Part shown: positions 1,376 through 43,472 of the stretch, one piece after another
How positions within the stretch are numbered: position 1 is the first letter of the stretch
How the letters are laid out: every line of letters starts with the position of its first letter
Source of the DNA: a bacterium
Lineage (GTDB): Bacteria > Bdellovibrionota_G > JALEGL01
Reading direction: 5' to 3'
DNA length: 49,303 nucleotides
Assembly: GCA_022763185.1 (NCBI GenBank)
Contig: JALEGL010000002.1
Coordinates: forward strand, 1-49,303
The notes under the pieces: generated by a model
Databases searched by the model: none
The model's input: only the letters and a program-made list of their open reading frames with translations
What the model was told of the DNA's origin: nothing
Translations under genes and position numbers: made by a program

Positions 1376-2776
1376 TTAGTTTAAAATAAAAAAACCTAAG
1401 TTGTTGATGGAGCTTTCTTCGAGGGTTTCTTTTACTTCATTTAGAAAGTGTGCATCCATTGATTGATGTAAAATGCATACAGCATTGTTAGGCTGAGAAG
1501 TATAAAAGGGCAGCTTCTCCCATGTCATGTAATGTATACCCTGGGTTGCAGGATCGTTTACAGAGTCTTGAGCAATGGTGAAATCTTCATTATCTAAAAA
1601 TGAACTTTCAATCACTACAAAACCCAAGTCTTCAAATAAAGTCTTAAATAAAGAAAGATTTTTTTTAAATACAATAAACGTGGCATCACTTTTGAGAGTA
1701 TGAATTGTTTTTAGTATATCTTGATTGGCTAAGTGGTTTGAACTTTGTAAATCTAAGGGGAGTGGTTGAGTATCATTTGCAGATAAATCGCCTTCAAAAT
1801 GATAATAACCAACTTTCCAGTGAAAAATCTGTAAATACTGTTCAAATTTCAATATTTTTTTTGCTTGATTAAGCTCTTGAGCCGTTAAACTTTTATCTTC
1901 CAGTAGCAATTTCTCCATCTCTTGATCCGTATAACCTGAAACAAAATTAATCTTTTCTGAAGACAAGAAGTTCCAGCGCAATAGGGTTGTTTTTAGAGAT
2001 TCATGGGGTTTACTGGAATCAATATGTTGTATATTCCCATTCTTAAATGTAATTTTTTTCGTAAAGTCATCTTTATTTAAGGTTAAAGTACCTGTAGCAT
2101 TGTAATAAGATAAGCTTGAAAGAACATTGGAAATACAGGTAAAAATAAGCTGACTTTTATGCTTAAATTTGGACTTTTCTAGTTTAGGGCTTTGGTATTG
2201 ATGTTCAAATAGTGGCAAAGCATGTAGAAAAAAATTTTGTAAATTTTTATAGAGTATTTCCAAGTAAACACCGAAATGCTGGTCTGGAAGGCTATGAGAG
2301 TAGTTTTCCTGAATTAAAAACTCTCCTTGAAACCAGCCCAAAAGGTCGAGTAATTTTTCTAAACATACGTGTTTTTCTATAGATGCAACTTGAGCACTAT
2401 TAATATTGAGTAAGTATTTGGCTTGTTCATGGTGTTCAAGAATATTTTCTTTTCTAAAGGCTTCTATTTCATCCAGTTTAGTAGCACTTTTTTTAATTTT
2501 ATCTTGTTCAAGCAGTTGTTTCTTCAAAATAATATTTTTATAAGATTCATCTTGCAGGTTTGAATGAATATTAAGAATATGACCCTGATGAAAGTAAACA
2601 TGTTTAATTCTTTGCTTATTTTCAAAAATGATTCTACCGCTAAACTTATTTTTGAAGCTGTTTAAAATAATAATATAGGCCGGAATTTTGATTAAACTGC
2701 CTGTGATAGGTATGTTTTTACCAAAGTCTGCATTTAAAGAGGGTATTTCAAAATTGGCGGACTGCATAAGAGCCAC
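1376..2776 (-). CDS. Protein with two DUF4388 (PATAN-like) modules
   Basis: A 466-residue soluble protein. The first module (about residues 25-160) has the DUF4388 hallmark of a short beta meander with FSGRIIFENKQ and HVYFHQGHILNI, followed by helices and GWFQGEFLIQ. A second module (about residues 215-340) repeats the plan: ATGTLTLNKD, KKITFKNGNIQHI and later KVGYYHFEGD. The last 110 residues have receiver-like strand/helix alternation, but I see no clear phospho-acceptor. DUF4388 proteins are common in Deltaproteobacteria and are linked to gliding, polarity and signalling scaffolds. The function here is not known. The start used is GTG at 2776; an ATG three codons later (2767) is equally possible because neither has a good ribosome site. 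A paralogue lies at 25061-26533. Confidence 0.75.
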   Translation of the reverse strand: MALMQSANFEIPSLNADFGKNIPITGSLIKIPAYIIILNSFKNKFSGRIIFENKQRIKHVYFHQGHILNIHSNLQDESYKNIILKKQLLEQDKIKKSATKLDEIEAFRKENILEHHEQAKYLLNINSAQVASIEKHVCLEKLLDLLGWFQGEFLIQENYSHSLPDQHFGVYLEILYKNLQNFFLHALPLFEHQYQSPKLEKSKFKHKSQLIFTCISNVLSSLSYYNATGTLTLNKDDFTKKITFKNGNIQHIDSSKPHESLKTTLLRWNFLSSEKINFVSGYTDQEMEKLLLEDKSLTAQELNQAKKILKFEQYLQIFHWKVGYYHFEGDLSANDTQPLPLDLQSSNHLANQDILKTIHTLKSDATFIVFKKNLSLFKTLFEDLGFVVIESSFLDNEDFTIAQDSVNDPATQGIHYMTWEKLPFYTSQPNNAVCILHQSMDAHFLNEVKETLEESSINNLGFFILN

Positions 2777-2888: not shown

Positions 2889-5800
2889 ATGCCCTACATA
2901 TACTCTTTATTACTCGTATGCGTTTTTATCTTATCCTCTTGTCAACAAAGTGGATCAACTGTTGGTGGAGGAAACCCTATACCTACGCCTCCTATAGTTG
3001 ATATCATTGAACCACCAGAGCCTGGAGAAGAAGAAACCATTGTTATTGGTGACCCTGGGTTATGCAATTCTGGGGATACTGCCAGAGTCGGTGTTTCAGG
3101 AGCTGGTAGCGCGCGTTTTTCACTCGTCTCCGATGATTTTCCTTGTACTCCAGCAAAGGATAATCGTTTGGAAGAGTACAGTATGATTTTATTCAACACA
3201 ACTGAATCACCCATTGCATTTAGAGTAGACTCTCCATCTGCAGTTAACCCCTTTGGCTTTTCTAATACCAATTATAGTAGCCAAGATGCTTATGATAAAC
3301 CTGTTACCTTGGGTGTTGAACCTAAAAATTATGATATTGGTGCGGTCCATACATCTCTTGAAGCTGCTAATTTACCCTTGGCAGGTCAAAATAACTATTT
3401 TAATGACGGTCCGGTGGTTAATGCACTGGTTTCTGAATATGTTTTAGGAGATGAGGTAGAGCTAAGAGTATTAAGTGATCCATCCGATACCAATACCTTT
3501 ATAACAACCTCCGCAATACTAAGAGCACAAGGAACCTATATTAATTTGTTTGTTGATAGAGATGTCCCAATGGGGGGAATTCATGCCGATTCTCCAGAAC
3601 AACAAGACTTAGATCATGCTGTGGAAGTTTTTGATAGAAATATTTACCCCTTGGTAACCACATTACTGGGTGAACCCTCTGATATAGATGGGAACACAAG
3701 AATCAATGTACTTATTACTCCAATTATTAACAGAAACATTTCAGCCGCAAGCTATGTAGATGCTCGAAATGTATCAGAATATAACCCAATCAGTAATCCT
3801 GTTTCCAATGAAGGTGAGTTTATTTTTATGTATGCTCCAGATTCATTAGCCAACTACTCATCCGGTGGAAACAATACTGATGTTGAAACATATTTCAAAA
3901 ATAAACTGTTCAATGGCTGGTTGGCCTTTCAGCTACCAAAGATTATCAGTTATAATCAAAAAGTAATTATCAATGGCGGTGCTCCCGAATTAGACTGGAT
4001 CGATGACGGTATTGGGGCGGTTATGGCCGATTTATGTGGGTTTAACTTGTTTAGAAGAGCTGCTTGGAGATATTTAGCTGCTCCACAACTTGACGATTTA
4101 AGGAAAGCAGATCTTTTTGAAACAATCTCTGGGCAAGGAGCAGAGTATTTATTTATGCTCTATTATGTTCAATCAAATATAGATGATACGGTACAAGATA
4201 CAAACACCGATGGTTTTGATGATGATTTAGAGTTTCTATCTGAGGTTTATGCTGCTAGTGGTGTTGGTCCGCAAAACTTGGTTGAACATGTAGATGTTTT
4301 ATATGATCCAGAGATTGAAAGTGAGTTTGATGGCTTATTTAAAGATTACGTTATTGCTTTGTTAACCAGTGGCTCTGGCCAAGCCGCATTACAACAAAGT
4401 GGTCAAACTGCGTTAAAGTATTATTTGAACTATAACCCTCTGGTCTACGGCTCTCAAATAAGTGATAGTAATGGTTCTGTTAGAGCTGGAGCAGACGGTA
4501 TAACAGTAAGTTTGAATGATGGCGACCTTTTGGATGGTGATATGACACAAAACTTGATCGGTCTCGATTTACATCGTTATAATGAAGAGGATAGAGTTTT
4601 ATTTGAAAATGCAGATGAATATGTCTATGCGCCAGGGAACTCAATGAATGGTTATATTGATCCTTATTCAGCTATGTTTGTCAGAATGTCAGGCTTATTG
4701 ATGTCTGAACAGTCTGTAGGATTGTTTTCTTCTTCAACATCTTTAAAAGGATTTTTAGTTCGTAGACCTGATTTAACGTATCCAAAAACATACCATGAAA
4801 GTATTTATGGCGCGATCAATCAAATGCATGAAGATTTAGATCAGATTGGTCCAAACCCCTTCTGGGAAAATCAAGGTCCAGCTGAAAATGCCAAGCGAAT
4901 AAATTTAGCAGGTATGATTGAGTCAAATCCAAGTGTTGGAGAAACATCGGAAGACTTTATTTCCATTGTTGGTGAAATTGATGCTTCACAATCTATTTTT
5001 GTCTGTCCTGAATTTACTGAAGATTGTTCTGATGAAACTGTACAAGACACAGACAAATATATATTTACAGTTCCTGATCTTGGGAGAGGAGATGAAGGCC
5101 TCTTGAGTATTAGTATTCGAAGACGTTTTGACGCTGGTCTTGACTCAACTGGATTTAATCCTCTTTTAGCTATCGTTTCATCTAAAGATGTTCCTTACCC
5201 TTATGTTCCTCATCCTATTAGAAATGTAGTAAATAATGACTTAGGAGGGACGGATACTCGTCAACAATATCGCTGGAGAACTTCTCAGTTAATATGTGGT
5301 GATGGTCAGGGAGACGCGATGGGAGATGCAGATGCTACACTAACAGCAACCAATACAGGAGTGGACTGTGTCCCTGGAGGTGAAGATGATTCATTAAAAA
5401 TTATTTTTGATCCTGAACTTTTTGTTGAAAATACAGGTGCTTTGAGTACTTCTTTAGGAAGTTGGGATGGTAATATTGTTGGTGGTGAATGCGATGCTTT
5501 ACCTGCTGCTTTTGGAGTCAATGGTTTGGGTTATGGTGATTATGATGCCTATCCTGTGACAAATATTGAGGTTTCTGGTTCGAGCTTAGGACAATATCCA
5601 TGGAGTGATTCTTTTATGCAAATCAGTTATAACGGTTCACCTTATCCTAAGGTCTTGTTTGATCGTGAGTTTTTGAAAGTTTCACCTGAGTACCCTTTTT
5701 TGGGTGATGAAAACAACCCTCCTTATGATCCAAGAGCCGTTAATGATCTTTCTCTAAACTGTCATATAGAAACAGGTGGTGACATTGATCTTATTGCAGA

Positions 5801-6338
5801 CGCTCCAGATGATTTTATTTCCTATCAAGAGTTGGCTTCTGTTGAAGTGTCAACGCTTGCACAGCAAGTTTTAGCTGAAATGTCCAGGTTTAGATTTTCT
5901 AGTTCAAGTCAAGCAGAAAGTGCTGTGCTTGACCCCAAATACGATACTCCTGATATCTTTATTATTGATGGAGATAGTAGAGACCTTGATAGCGGCTGTT
6001 CAACCTCAGATTTAACCCATAATATGAATACCTATACGGTCAGAGGAGGTGGAGAAGGCGCAATGTTAATGGCCGAAGATAATAAAATGCTAGAACACAT
6101 CGCTTTTAATTACAACAGTTCAAGTAGTGGTTTTCTTAACCAAGGTATTTACAGCAATGACGGTGGAGAAACCAAATTAAAATTGGTTCCAGGAAAAAGT
6201 TATACTTTAATTGTTGGTGGAGAAGGAGGTAGTACGGGTGATTATGAGATTAGAATTCGTAAAGTATCCTCAGCAACAAAAAACTTTGCCCAATTAAAAG
6301 ATGTTGATAACAGTGAACCTTGTTTCTTACAACTATGA
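2889..6338 (+). CDS. Giant lipoprotein, M30-like protease fold with apparently lost zinc site
   Basis: An 1149-residue exported lipoprotein: a hydrophobic leader ending in lipobox LSSC (Cys18), then a Pro/Gly-rich linker. Around residues 220-385 the layout resembles secreted M30/hyicolysin-like metalloproteases: a DIDGNTRINVLITP strand, then a helix where HExxH is expected, then a W-x-x-(E)-G helix. Here the helix reads LAFQLPKIISYNQK, so the H, E and H positions hold Phe347, Gln348 and Lys351, and the later motif is WIDDG (Asp373 where Glu is usual). If the alignment is right the enzyme is dead. The C-terminal 400 residues are beta-rich with several Cys and Asp/Gly-rich loops, ending in GKSYTLIVGGEGGSTGDYEI, which resembles a bacterial pre-peptidase C-type domain. 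The stop overlaps the start of the epimerase gene (ATGA). The family assignment is inference. Confidence 0.75.
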   Translation: MPYIYSLLLVCVFILSSCQQSGSTVGGGNPIPTPPIVDIIEPPEPGEEETIVIGDPGLCNSGDTARVGVSGAGSARFSLVSDDFPCTPAKDNRLEEYSMILFNTTESPIAFRVDSPSAVNPFGFSNTNYSSQDAYDKPVTLGVEPKNYDIGAVHTSLEAANLPLAGQNNYFNDGPVVNALVSEYVLGDEVELRVLSDPSDTNTFITTSAILRAQGTYINLFVDRDVPMGGIHADSPEQQDLDHAVEVFDRNIYPLVTTLLGEPSDIDGNTRINVLITPIINRNISAASYVDARNVSEYNPISNPVSNEGEFIFMYAPDSLANYSSGGNNTDVETYFKNKLFNGWLAFQLPKIISYNQKVIINGGAPELDWIDDGIGAVMADLCGFNLFRRAAWRYLAAPQLDDLRKADLFETISGQGAEYLFMLYYVQSNIDDTVQDTNTDGFDDDLEFLSEVYAASGVGPQNLVEHVDVLYDPEIESEFDGLFKDYVIALLTSGSGQAALQQSGQTALKYYLNYNPLVYGSQISDSNGSVRAGADGITVSLNDGDLLDGDMTQNLIGLDLHRYNEEDRVLFENADEYVYAPGNSMNGYIDPYSAMFVRMSGLLMSEQSVGLFSSSTSLKGFLVRRPDLTYPKTYHESIYGAINQMHEDLDQIGPNPFWENQGPAENAKRINLAGMIESNPSVGETSEDFISIVGEIDASQSIFVCPEFTEDCSDETVQDTDKYIFTVPDLGRGDEGLLSISIRRRFDAGLDSTGFNPLLAIVSSKDVPYPYVPHPIRNVVNNDLGGTDTRQQYRWRTSQLICGDGQGDAMGDADATLTATNTGVDCVPGGEDDSLKIIFDPELFVENTGALSTSLGSWDGNIVGGECDALPAAFGVNGLGYGDYDAYPVTNIEVSGSSLGQYPWSDSFMQISYNGSPYPKVLFDREFLKVSPEYPFLGDENNPPYDPRAVNDLSLNCHIETGGDIDLIADAPDDFISYQELASVEVSTLAQQVLAEMSRFRFSSSSQAESAVLDPKYDTPDIFIIDGDSRDLDSGCSTSDLTHNMNTYTVRGGGEGAMLMAEDNKMLEHIAFNYNSSSSGFLNQGIYSNDGGETKLKLVPGKSYTLIVGGEGGSTGDYEIRIRKVSSATKNFAQLKDVDNSEPCFLQL

Positions 6339-6736
6339 TAAAAAAAATAAACCACATAGGCATTGCCGTAAAATCTATTGAACAAAGTCTACCTTTTTAC
6401 AAAGATACTCTAAAACTTAATTATATCGGACAGGAGTTGGTAAAATCAGAGGGTGTGAAGGTTGCTTTTTTTTCGATTGGTGAAAGTAAAATAGAATTGC
6501 TAGAAGCTATTTCTGATGATTCACCAATAGCAAAGTTTATTAAAAAAAAGGGTGAAGGTGTTCATCATGTAGCTTTTGACTGTAACCAAATAAGTAACTT
6601 TAGCGAAAATCATCAGAATCTACTCATTGAACCAGCACTGAGATCCGGTGCTCACAATTGTTGGGTTTCTTTCATTCACCCAAAATATAGCAGTGGTGTA
6701 CTGATTGAACTTAGTGAAAAAAAAGATAGCTCTTAA
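6335..6736 (+). CDS. mce: Methylmalonyl-CoA epimerase
   Basis: A 133-residue glyoxalase/VOC-fold protein that interconverts (2R)- and (2S)-methylmalonyl-CoA in propionyl-CoA metabolism. The paired beta-alpha-beta modules are visible: KINHIGIAVKSIEQSLPFY at the N-terminus with the metal-ligand His, KIELLEAI in the middle, GVHHVAFD with the second His, and VLIELSEK with the terminal Glu. The length is normal for the family. The start is ATG 6335, overlapping the lipoprotein stop as ATGA; a TTG at 6320 in the same frame is less likely. The stop overlaps the next start by one base (TAATG), so all three genes look translationally coupled. Pairing an epimerase with a lipoprotein and a TPR protein is unusual. 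The mutase is not in this window. Confidence 0.9.
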   Translation: MIKKINHIGIAVKSIEQSLPFYKDTLKLNYIGQELVKSEGVKVAFFSIGESKIELLEAISDDSPIAKFIKKKGEGVHHVAFDCNQISNFSENHQNLLIEPALRSGAHNCWVSFIHPKYSSGVLIELSEKKDSS

Positions 6737-24452: not shown

Positions 24453-24827
24453 TTACTTTTTTCTTTTGCTTGTTTTCTTTTTAGCTGTTTTTTTCTTGGT
24501 AACTTTCTTTTTAGCTTTTTTCTTAGCTACCTTCTTTTTAGCTGTTTTTTTCTTAGCAGCTTTCTTTTTAGTTTTTTTCTTAGCTACCTTCTTTTTAGCT
24601 TTTTTCTTGGTTGCTTTCTTTTTAGTCTTTTTCTTAGCTACTTTCTTTTTAGCTTTTTTCTTAGTAACTTTCTTTTTGGCTGTTTTTTTCTTGGCAGCTT
24701 TCTTTTTAGTCTTTTTCTTAGCTACTTTCTTTTTAGCTGTTTTTTTCTTGGCTACTTTCTTTTTGGCTTTTTTCTTAGTCACCTTTTTTTTAGTTGTTTT
24801 CTTCTTCGTTGCTTTTTTCTTTGGCAT
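24453..24827 (-). CDS. Histone H1-like lysine-rich DNA-binding protein made of xKKK units
   Basis: 124 residues built almost wholly of short units: one or two of Ala, Thr or Val followed by KKK, repeated about 26 times, closing with TSKRKK. There is no globular domain, acidic residue or aromatic residue. Such sequences occur in histone H1 C-terminal tails and in bacterial H1-like proteins (chlamydial Hc2, Bordetella BpH1, Pseudomonas AlgP tail), where they bind and compact DNA non-specifically. The start is secure: GGAG lies seven bases before ATG 24827, a consensus-like promoter sits upstream and a strong terminator follows. The opposite-strand frame is an artefact of the repeat. It converges with ihfA. 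Confidence 0.88.
   Translation of the reverse strand: MPKKKATKKKTTKKKVTKKKAKKKVAKKKTAKKKVAKKKTKKKAAKKKTAKKKVTKKKAKKKVAKKKTKKKATKKKAKKKVAKKKTKKKAAKKKTAKKKVAKKKAKKKVTKKKTAKKKTSKRKK
24456..24824 (-). repeat. In-gene tandem array of 12- and 15-base units encoding xKKK / xxKKK
   Basis: The coding DNA repeats units of 4 or 5 codons. A higher-order block reading VAKKKTKKKAAKKKTAKKK recurs with small changes, so the gene probably grew by unequal crossing-over or slippage, and its length may vary between strains. Confidence 0.8.
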
Positions 24828-41342: not shown

Positions 41343-43472
41343 TTAATTAATACTGTTATTTCTTTTTAATCTTATGGTTTGTCCGGCATTGATTAGCAGT
41401 ACAAAAGCAATTAAAAACAGTAATCCAGTTGCATTTTCCTGTGTACTTGATTGACAAGCTTTAAAGTTGACAAAGTTTACCATTTCTCCAGCATTATTGA
41501 TTGCTTCTCCACCATCAACAATACTAAATTGTGTGCAAGCAATCATTACTTTGCTTTGCGAATCTTCTAACAATGCACAGGCTTCATAGTCACCATCAGC
41601 ATAAATATGTTGTTTATTGGGTGCGCAGCTTTCATTGCTGCTACCATCACCAAACTGCATATCACAGCTAGATAGAGCGCTGGCGTTACCGGAATCTAGG
41701 TTAAACGTTACTTTCCCATCAGCACCAAAACTTGCATGCAAAACAGCATTATCAAAGGCGTCACTGGGTTCACCGGGTTGCAATACTTTAACGGTTACTG
41801 TCCCTTCATTGGAGTCTTTATCATCATCATTCATGCTCCATTTGTAGGTATCGGTTCCAATAAAATTACTGGGAGCTTGATAGGTTTTGTAGACACCAGA
41901 TCCTGTTTGGCTGCCTTTAACAACATTTTCTTCAGTACGGTATGTATAGGGTCCAGGACCATAATTATCATCATTGTAATCCAGTGAATACGATACTTCA
42001 TCATTGTGCTTGACAACAACAACTTGATCATTGGCGACAGGCGCTGGATTATTGGCATTATTTGCAGGAACTCCGTTAACCGTTACTTCTACTTTTGCCC
42101 AAGCGTTACCAGGGCCTATTTCATTAAGTTTAACACTGATACCATTAGAGTTATTATACGTTTCACCCAACTCAATGGTCTTTTTAATTTGTGAATCAAA
42201 CGCCAAGGAGGTACCTTTTTCATGAAAACTGACTTGATTTAAGTATGAACTGGTTAAATTAGCATCCAAGCCAACGGCTGTCCTAAAAGAAAGATAAATG
42301 GTTTTACTTAATAAAAAACGTAAAGCTTGAGGGCCATCAGACATAGCTGGATCAACTCTTAAGGGATAAATGGTATAAAATCCGGATTGTACCGTACCAA
42401 TTCTATTTTGGTAGTTTCTAAAGCCTTGTAATTCATCAACATTGACAGCATTCATCGACATGGTTTTAAAACCAATGCTGCTGCCGTTACCCATGACCGA
42501 TGAATCATCGCCGTAGGTTTGACTATTATTTGCAGCGTGAGCAAGTCCCATGGTGTGACCAATTTCATGTGGAATTACAACACTATGATTACTGCTGGCA
42601 AAAAGCCTTACGATAATAGCTCGCATGGTCTGACTTGTAGAAGGTGAACCAAACTCTGCATAACCTCCTAAACCACCACAAGTACTGGACATATTAGGAG
42701 TTATTAAAACAATATTATCAAAAGTATTGATATCAACACCATAATCATTTAAAATTTCGCTTCTTGCTTGAGGAACAAAGGTGTCCAAACCTACTCCAGA
42801 ACTACACCACGAAGATCCTGAGTTTAATGTTATGCTAAAAATCTCTGGATTACCATCAGCATCTGGATCATTATCAAACTGTAAATATCCCCAGCTGCCT
42901 TCATAATACTGTTGATTGGTACGATTATGATGTGCTGTAACTCCTGATTCAGACAATTGACTCTGTTGACCATTTGAAAAATTAACTCTAACATACACAA
43001 TATTTCTCACATTGACTGTGGAAGCCACCATAAACTGATTCATCAAGCTTTGCTCATCAATATTTAAGTTGTTAATCATCAGAGCATTGTTTTCAACTTT
43101 ACCTTCAGCCTGAATATGCATGGTTGAATTTAATAATTCTTTATCAATATGATCAGCAAATATTACCTCTTTATGTTTTTGAGTATCTGGATCTAAAATT
43201 CTGAATTTTTTTTCATGCGTATGCTCAGCAAAATTATCTGAAATTAAAACCTGAATAGGACCTTCATAAGAAAAACTTGAACCTTGTTGTAAAAAGCGAT
43301 GTTGTTGAAACTGGGAAGCGTTGGATTTAGCGCTTTCAGTAACATTATCTTGATAAGAAGGATCAAGAATTTCATTAGCATTTTGTGATTTTAAGCTGCT
43401 ACAAGCATTAAAAAGTAGAAAACTTATTAAAAGTAATAATTGTTTGAATTTTTTATGTTTGGCTAAAATCAT
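41343..43472 (-). CDS. Metzincin metalloprotease lipoprotein (M11/gametolysin-like) with PKD-type domains and C-terminal anchor
   Basis: 709 residues. Lipobox LFNAC (Cys24), a propeptide-like region, then a metzincin domain: HEIGHTMGLAH gives zinc ligands His302, His306, His312 and catalytic Glu303, and SSVMG holds the Met-turn (Met327). The YGDDSSVMG form is like peptidase M11. Downstream are a cadherin/Ig-like tandem region (PAPVANDQVVVV, NFIGTDTYKWSMNDDDKDS) and a PKD-like domain (CDMQFGDGSS). The extreme C-terminus has Cys, then a hydrophobic span LLFLIAFVLLINAG and a basic tail RLKR, like MYXO-CTERM type sorting signals. It is predicted to be on the cell surface and proteolytically active. 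Confidence 0.88.
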   Translation of the reverse strand: MILAKHKKFKQLLLLISFLLFNACSSLKSQNANEILDPSYQDNVTESAKSNASQFQQHRFLQQGSSFSYEGPIQVLISDNFAEHTHEKKFRILDPDTQKHKEVIFADHIDKELLNSTMHIQAEGKVENNALMINNLNIDEQSLMNQFMVASTVNVRNIVYVRVNFSNGQQSQLSESGVTAHHNRTNQQYYEGSWGYLQFDNDPDADGNPEIFSITLNSGSSWCSSGVGLDTFVPQARSEILNDYGVDINTFDNIVLITPNMSSTCGGLGGYAEFGSPSTSQTMRAIIVRLFASSNHSVVIPHEIGHTMGLAHAANNSQTYGDDSSVMGNGSSIGFKTMSMNAVNVDELQGFRNYQNRIGTVQSGFYTIYPLRVDPAMSDGPQALRFLLSKTIYLSFRTAVGLDANLTSSYLNQVSFHEKGTSLAFDSQIKKTIELGETYNNSNGISVKLNEIGPGNAWAKVEVTVNGVPANNANNPAPVANDQVVVVKHNDEVSYSLDYNDDNYGPGPYTYRTEENVVKGSQTGSGVYKTYQAPSNFIGTDTYKWSMNDDDKDSNEGTVTVKVLQPGEPSDAFDNAVLHASFGADGKVTFNLDSGNASALSSCDMQFGDGSSNESCAPNKQHIYADGDYEACALLEDSQSKVMIACTQFSIVDGGEAINNAGEMVNFVNFKACQSSTQENATGLLFLIAFVLLINAGQTIRLKRNNSIN

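Follow-up and report, generated by a model that had tools for sequence, protein, structure and literature searches.

A predicted lipoprotein with an M30/lugdulysin-like protease domain that lacks the catalytic zinc-site residues

The locus and its gene context

The window, by which we mean the whole stretch of 49,303 nucleotides that was analysed, carries near its start a gene for a predicted lipoprotein, which is preceded by a divergently oriented gene and followed by two genes on its own strand. The features of this region are as follows.

1376..2776 (-): divergent upstream DUF4388 gene (Pfam E = 7.8e-16), 112 bp from the lipoprotein gene; also present at L044 and L045
2889..6338 (+): ORF of 1149 residues for the predicted lipoprotein with the apparently dead M30/lugdulysin-like domain (ORF translation; single match in the genome)
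2889..2942 (+): predicted signal peptide with lipobox LSSC (residues 15–18) and Cys18 (translation; Cys18 is invariant in a 13-row alignment)
3504..4373 (+): region homologous to HExxH M30-like peptidases, residues 206–495 (hhalign and lugdulysin matches)
3795..3842 (+): N-x-x-S-N-E-x-E...P-D stretch, residues 303–318, N-terminal to the former zinc helix (column counts)
3927..3932 (+): Phe347-Gln348, replacing a zinc-binding His and the Glu base (lugdulysin alignment and column counts)
3939..3941 (+): Lys351, replacing the second zinc His (lugdulysin alignment and column counts)
4005..4007 (+): Asp373, replacing the third zinc ligand, Glu (column counts)
4026..4028 (+): Ala380, replacing a Glu present in 22 of 24 relatives (column counts)
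6335..6736 (+): glyoxalase/epimerase-like gene (Pfam Glyoxalase_4, E = 4.4e-15); also present at L044, L045 and L046
6736..8556 (+): downstream gene for a TPR protein (Pfam TPR) with an N-terminal Cys-containing stretch

The gene is present in a single copy in its genome (2.25 Mb, 15 contigs, 97% complete). Its product gave no match in Pfam or NCBIfam up to E = 10, and six members of alignment A2 gave two chance-level Pfam matches only (E = 0.24 and 0.66). The Cys of the lipobox is found in all 13 of the long homologues described below; a lipobox-like string was detected by regular expression in nine of these, and in the remaining four the Cys was judged by eye from the translations. The protein is therefore predicted to be lipidated and to reside in the cell envelope.

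The lipoprotein gene and the glyoxalase/epimerase-like gene overlap at ATGA, where the stop codon of the first shares bases with the ATG of the second. When nine genes of the window were compared by tblastn (1e-5) with other loci that encode the lipoprotein, all nine were found at L045 and seven at L044, which lacks the TPR and agmatinase-like genes. L046 has two of the nine, the lipoprotein and glyoxalase-like genes, and L043 and the short contig L042 have the lipoprotein gene alone. The TPR gene gave a match at L045 and none at L044 or L046 at this threshold. Two genomes with a lipoprotein of 45–49% identity (tblastn) share most of the neighbouring genes, and the glyoxalase-like neighbour is also retained in the one other genome of the window's phylum. 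The tblastn counts therefore indicate that the gene-order context is preserved inside the window's order and not beyond it. We note that at L044 (8580–9305, +), L046 (12677–13402, +) and L045 (7915–8811, -) the glyoxalase-like gene is separated from the following TPR-type gene by an ORF with no Pfam match. These intervening ORFs, which were compared by position, are absent from the window.

Two other ORFs of the window may be mentioned. A 709-residue lipoprotein-like ORF (41343–43472, -) has an intact metzincin site, HEIGHTMGLAH, and matches Pfam Peptidase_M11 (E = 1.7e-10), so that the window also encodes a metalloprotease of another family; its site suggests that the product is probably active. 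A 124-residue ORF (24453–24827, -) consists almost entirely of KKxAKKK-type repeats and has no Pfam match; presumably it resembles a histone H1-like or DNA-binding tail.

Relationship to lugdulysin and the HExxH peptidases

A sequence-only reading of this DNA had proposed that the segment at 3900–4030 lines up with the active site of secreted M30-type proteases, with Phe347, Gln348 and Lys351 in place of His, Glu and His. The translation of the ORF does read LAFQLPKIISYNQK and then WIDDG, and the codons of Phe347 (3927–3929), Gln348 (3930–3932), Lys351 (3939–3941), Trp370 (3996–3998) and Asp373 (4005–4007) all fall within this interval. The proposed alignment was reproduced by phmmer. Among 177,635 distinct PDB sequences the best match of the single protein is the neutral metalloprotease lugdulysin (7bb9, E = 0.003; 7bb8, E = 0.0053), with the three residues opposite the His, Glu and His of its HExxH motif, and the next-best matches are two aminotransferases (E = 0.39 and 0.41). 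A profile of four orthologues matched lugdulysin at E = 5.1e-6, both lugdulysin sequences being the sole matches up to E = 1. With the 13-row profile the match improved to E = 1.3e-9 over about 250 residues that include both zinc-site segments, and the only other match, calnexin (E = 0.21), lies outside the domain. Lugdulysin is thus the only credible match in the PDB.

The same relationship is seen with relatives that retain HExxH, 12 of which (alignment A5) match lugdulysin at E = 1.7e-38. Comparison of the profile of the window protein's family with the 12-row HExxH profile using hhalign gave E = 1.8e-42 over 376 columns, and the 13-row profile gave E = 2e-38 over 291 columns. In a control run the unmasked profiles gave 2.4e-43; masking the zinc-site block in both profiles gave 9.9e-36, and reversing A5 gave 0.59. 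The last two values rule out a chance motif match, and the homology holds with or without the zinc-site block.

The significant profile match across the catalytic domain identifies the window protein as an M30/lugdulysin-like homologue, but it does not have the residues of an active enzyme. The window protein carries F-Q-L-P-K in place of the HExxH of lugdulysin and Asp373 in place of the Glu of its W-x-x-E; at the site where the HExxH relative L017 has LPHEIQHAISYNQHVLLRGGSPERTWLNEAL, the window protein has LAFQLPKIISYNQKVIINGGAPELDWIDDGI. It also differs in possessing a lipobox and in its length, 1149 residues compared with 410 in the lugdulysin PDB chain. AlphaFold predictions, made from alignments of three rows only, had a mean pLDDT of 25.2 for the full length and 33.5 for residues 206–495; because both values are too low, the proposed gluzincin fold, like that of 7bb8, rests on sequence profiles.

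We take lugdulysin and hyicolysin to belong to M30, and PF10460 to represent the hyicolysin family. As a label for the present family, M30 is weak. Peptidase_M30 (PF10460) is matched by one of the 12 HExxH relatives, L008, at E = 3.4e-4, which is below the curated cut-off; the remaining 11 gave no match to it at E up to 0.01 and the window protein none up to E = 10. When PF10460 was used as a genome query no matches were returned, but the controls likewise gave 0/14 and the result is uninformative.

Loss of the catalytic site and its distribution

The columns of the catalytic domain were compared between 13 long homologues that have lost the site, which we call dead, and 24 other related rows, which include the near-duplicate pairs L005/L039 and L008/L022 and the HNYQH sequence L025. 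For this, 32 distinct rows were chosen from 54 ORF matches (E <= 1e-4, zinc-site region covered, repeats dropped) and six rows were added to give 38. Among the rows left out of the final counts were L027, L028, L030 and L032, all four of which have HExxH, and the degenerate L082 was counted apart from both sets.

His347, Glu348 and His351 are found in none of the 13 dead rows, compared with 24, 23 and 24, respectively, of the 24 others. The sequence-only reading had described three replaced zinc-site residues. All three are indeed changed, but only the two His are zinc ligands, the Glu being the catalytic base. In addition, the window protein has Asp373 where the third ligand, the Glu of W-x-x-E, would be expected. 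Glu at 373 is kept in 3/13 dead rows compared with 24/24 others, and Asp373, or the Glu of these three rows, could join some metal site. Two further columns show a similar pattern: Glu380 (0/13 compared with 22/24) and Gly288 (2/13 compared with 22/24). The remaining ten columns that are common to at least 20 of the 24 other rows are retained in between six and 13 of the dead rows.

As to whether Phe, Gln and Lys are themselves conserved, the loss of His, Glu and His is common to all 13 orthologous rows, but the substitutes vary at each of the three positions. At 347 they are Phe (five rows), Ala (four), Leu, Gln, Tyr and Ser (one each), at 348 Gln (ten), His (two) and Gly (one), and at 351 Ser (four), Asn (four), Lys (three), Gln and Arg (one each). 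The same loss with different letters in 13 rows rules out a sequencing or assembly error. The predominant Gln at 348 is the same change as E242Q in the lugdulysin mutant 7bb9. The second mutated residue of 7bb9, Tyr315 (Y315F), corresponds to column 416 by manual counting on the printed alignment; here Arg (19) and Tyr (three) occupy most of the 24 other rows, and the dead rows have no consensus (two Arg and one Tyr of 13).

At several positions the dead rows vary less than the other rows, namely Pro278 (13/13 compared with 6/24), Asn303 (13/13 compared with 7/24), Glu308 (13/13 compared with 10/24) and Asp318 (12/13 compared with 9/24). Asn307 (13/13 and 21/24) and Glu310 (13/13 and 17/24) are common to both sets, and Ser306 is present in 19 of the 24 other rows. 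From these counts, therefore, the loss is aimed at the catalytic apparatus, and the strand N-terminal to the former zinc helix is preserved. Part of this conservation reflects shared ancestry, since a single phylum-level group contributes eight of the 13 rows.

The 13 long dead homologues are distributed over three phylum-level groups. They occur in four of the five genomes of the window's phylum, in one of two from the phylum of G191 (the other, G046, has a shorter HNYQH relative) and in eight of 58 from the phylum of G219. In a domain-wide sample 24 of 385 genomes gave any match, comprising six with a long dead homologue, 13 with HExxH relatives, G046 with HNYQH and four that were left unclassified (G201, G218, G286 and G331), as were the later matches in G058, G061, G077 and G204. 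A search of genome contigs with the single protein as the query found no relative. With an alignment as the query, two copies were found in named records, Bdellovibrionales bacterium HKST-UBA30 and Oligoflexia bacterium PL23a_bin.77; Oligoflexia bacterium is a name that NCBI assigns to Bdellovibrionota. In protein sequence, the nearest orthologue found is about 52% identical.

In a 38-row tree calculated without the zinc-site columns, the 13 long dead proteins form one clade (support 95/94) beside nine HExxH rows; the clade is less well supported (65/91) in the 32-row tree. The midpoint root serves for drawing only. That HExxH is the ancestral state is suggested by its spread among the relatives and by general knowledge of zincins. 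All 13 dead frames are free of internal stops, that of G191 reaching the contig end and including a run of unknown bases. Such frames in one deep clade rule out a pseudogene or a recent mutation. Because the loss is common to a 13-member clade it is not a local mutation, and the gene has stayed intact over the long divergence marked by the deep branches although the catalytic residues are gone. The pattern is consistent with a single loss long ago and lasting retention thereafter, as would be expected of a pseudo-protease. The profile matches and the loss across the clade thus strongly support the original proposal of a secreted M30/lugdulysin-like core from which the zinc chemistry has disappeared.

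Possible roles of the retained domain

In our view, the data described above are best, and fairly probably correctly, interpreted as a cell-envelope lipoprotein whose middle domain derives from a secreted M30/lugdulysin-like zinc protease and has been retained for a non-catalytic role. We infer that the window protein would hold no catalytic zinc and cleave no peptides. Since the gene is intact in distant relatives that lack the zinc-holding parts, it has probably taken on a new, non-cutting job in the envelope, most likely one of binding. More loosely, the old substrate groove or the adjoining strand (PxxN, residues 278–281, and NxxSNExE, residues 303–310) might bind a partner without cutting it, and the lipid-tethered protein might then act as a receptor, adhesin or scaffold. 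The Glu-to-Gln change may have come first, abolishing catalysis and sparing binding, with the ligands being lost later; we guess at this order because Gln is found at 348 in ten of the 13 rows. Only tentatively do we extend this to an ancient and so far undescribed family of pseudo-M30 lipoproteins of Bdellovibrionota-like lineages, whose groove would have been converted into a conserved receptor at the surface or into a catalytic pocket of a new kind (Pro278, Asn281, Asn303 and SNExE 306–310), needed for envelope function or for contact with other cells.

The 13-row alignment, in which several rows end early at the C-terminus at locus boundaries, has 12 invariant columns: Cys18, Glu96, Asp223, Pro278, Asn281, Asn303, Asn307, Glu308, Glu310, Asp720, Asp722 and Pro758. 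The invariant polar residues Asn281, Asn303, Asn307, Glu308 and Glu310, together with the frequent Gln at 348, could be read as the Asn/Glu/Gln lining of an old cleft that now catalyses a zinc-free reaction, and other activities are sometimes found in pseudo-enzymes according to a review (PMC11266112). However, Ser306, Asn307 and Glu310 are probably structural, because they are frequent in the 24 other rows as well, and the invariant core columns include no His, Cys, Lys or Ser; we consider new chemistry quite improbable. The same columns bear on another possibility, in which the protease domain would be no more than an inert structural shell or spacer and the last ~600 residues would carry the function. 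This C-terminal half is long, has been assigned to no family and includes the invariant Asp720, Asp722 and Pro758, but seven of the 12 invariant columns (Asp223, Pro278, Asn281, Asn303, Asn307, Glu308 and Glu310) lie in the protease-like core, which makes a mere spacer unlikely.

A binding or decoy role on the cell surface had been suggested in the sequence-only reading. If the cell also makes an active M30-like protease, the protein might be its decoy, its inhibitor or its partner. An HExxH paralogue does coexist with the long dead gene in six of the 13 genomes (G001, G004, G191, G391, G397 and G404), in each of them on a different contig from the dead gene, most of the assemblies being fragmented. 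In the other seven (G000, G002, G219, G405, G406, G408 and G409) the A5 search of 16 genomes found none at E up to 0.001; these include the window's own genome, which is 97% complete, and G002, which is only 74% complete. Because seven of 13 genomes showed no HExxH paralogue, such a role is not general. It is possible in some genomes, but as the explanation of the family we give it little credence, and a non-catalytic binding role in the envelope is preferred.

The dead metallopeptidases with which the family may be compared are, as far as is known, eukaryotic examples. In ADAM22/23, FtsHi, alpha-MPP and Gone early the zinc site is lost and the scaffold retained, as is the case here (PMC11266112). 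Table 1 of this review (PMC11266112, 2024) covers dead members of M1, M12, M13, M14, M15, M16, M24 and M41, and M30 is absent from it; a term search of the text likewise gave no mention of M30. Dead metallopeptidases are well known in eukaryotes, whereas the present proteins are bacterial and predicted to be lipid-anchored, a kind absent from section 3 and Tables 1 and 2 of PMC11266112. None of the literature matches listed for lugdulysin (including PMC10482373), hyicolysin, pseudoproteases and Bdellovibrio, mainly from open full text, concerned a dead M30/lugdulysin-like family. As far as our searches reach, the dead clade is undescribed, and it belongs to a protease superfamily that is already known. 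Any search for the HExxH motif would overlook the clade, and the window protein is nameless in Pfam and NCBIfam. With dead and HExxH relatives both at hand, the positions that survive the loss of catalysis can be compared, and these positions indicate a candidate binding site.

Three other relatives deserve mention. L082 (G191:C150, ORF 38–1852, +, 605 residues) is a short M30-like protein with Gln, Ala and Asp at the positions of His, Glu and His and with the Glu ligand present. It sits outside the dead clade in the tree and is possibly a second, independent loss, although a single clade including it was not rejected (p-AU 0.247). L042 (G191:C321, 169–5190) encodes a dead homologue of at least 1674 residues that reaches the contig end; its C-terminal half contains many DxDxDG-type repeats, for which TSP3_bac matched only at E = 0.66. 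In L025/L062 from G046 (about 607 residues), the HNYQH motif leaves all of the zinc ligands in place and changes the catalytic Glu to Asn, so that these proteins may bind zinc and are probably inactive.
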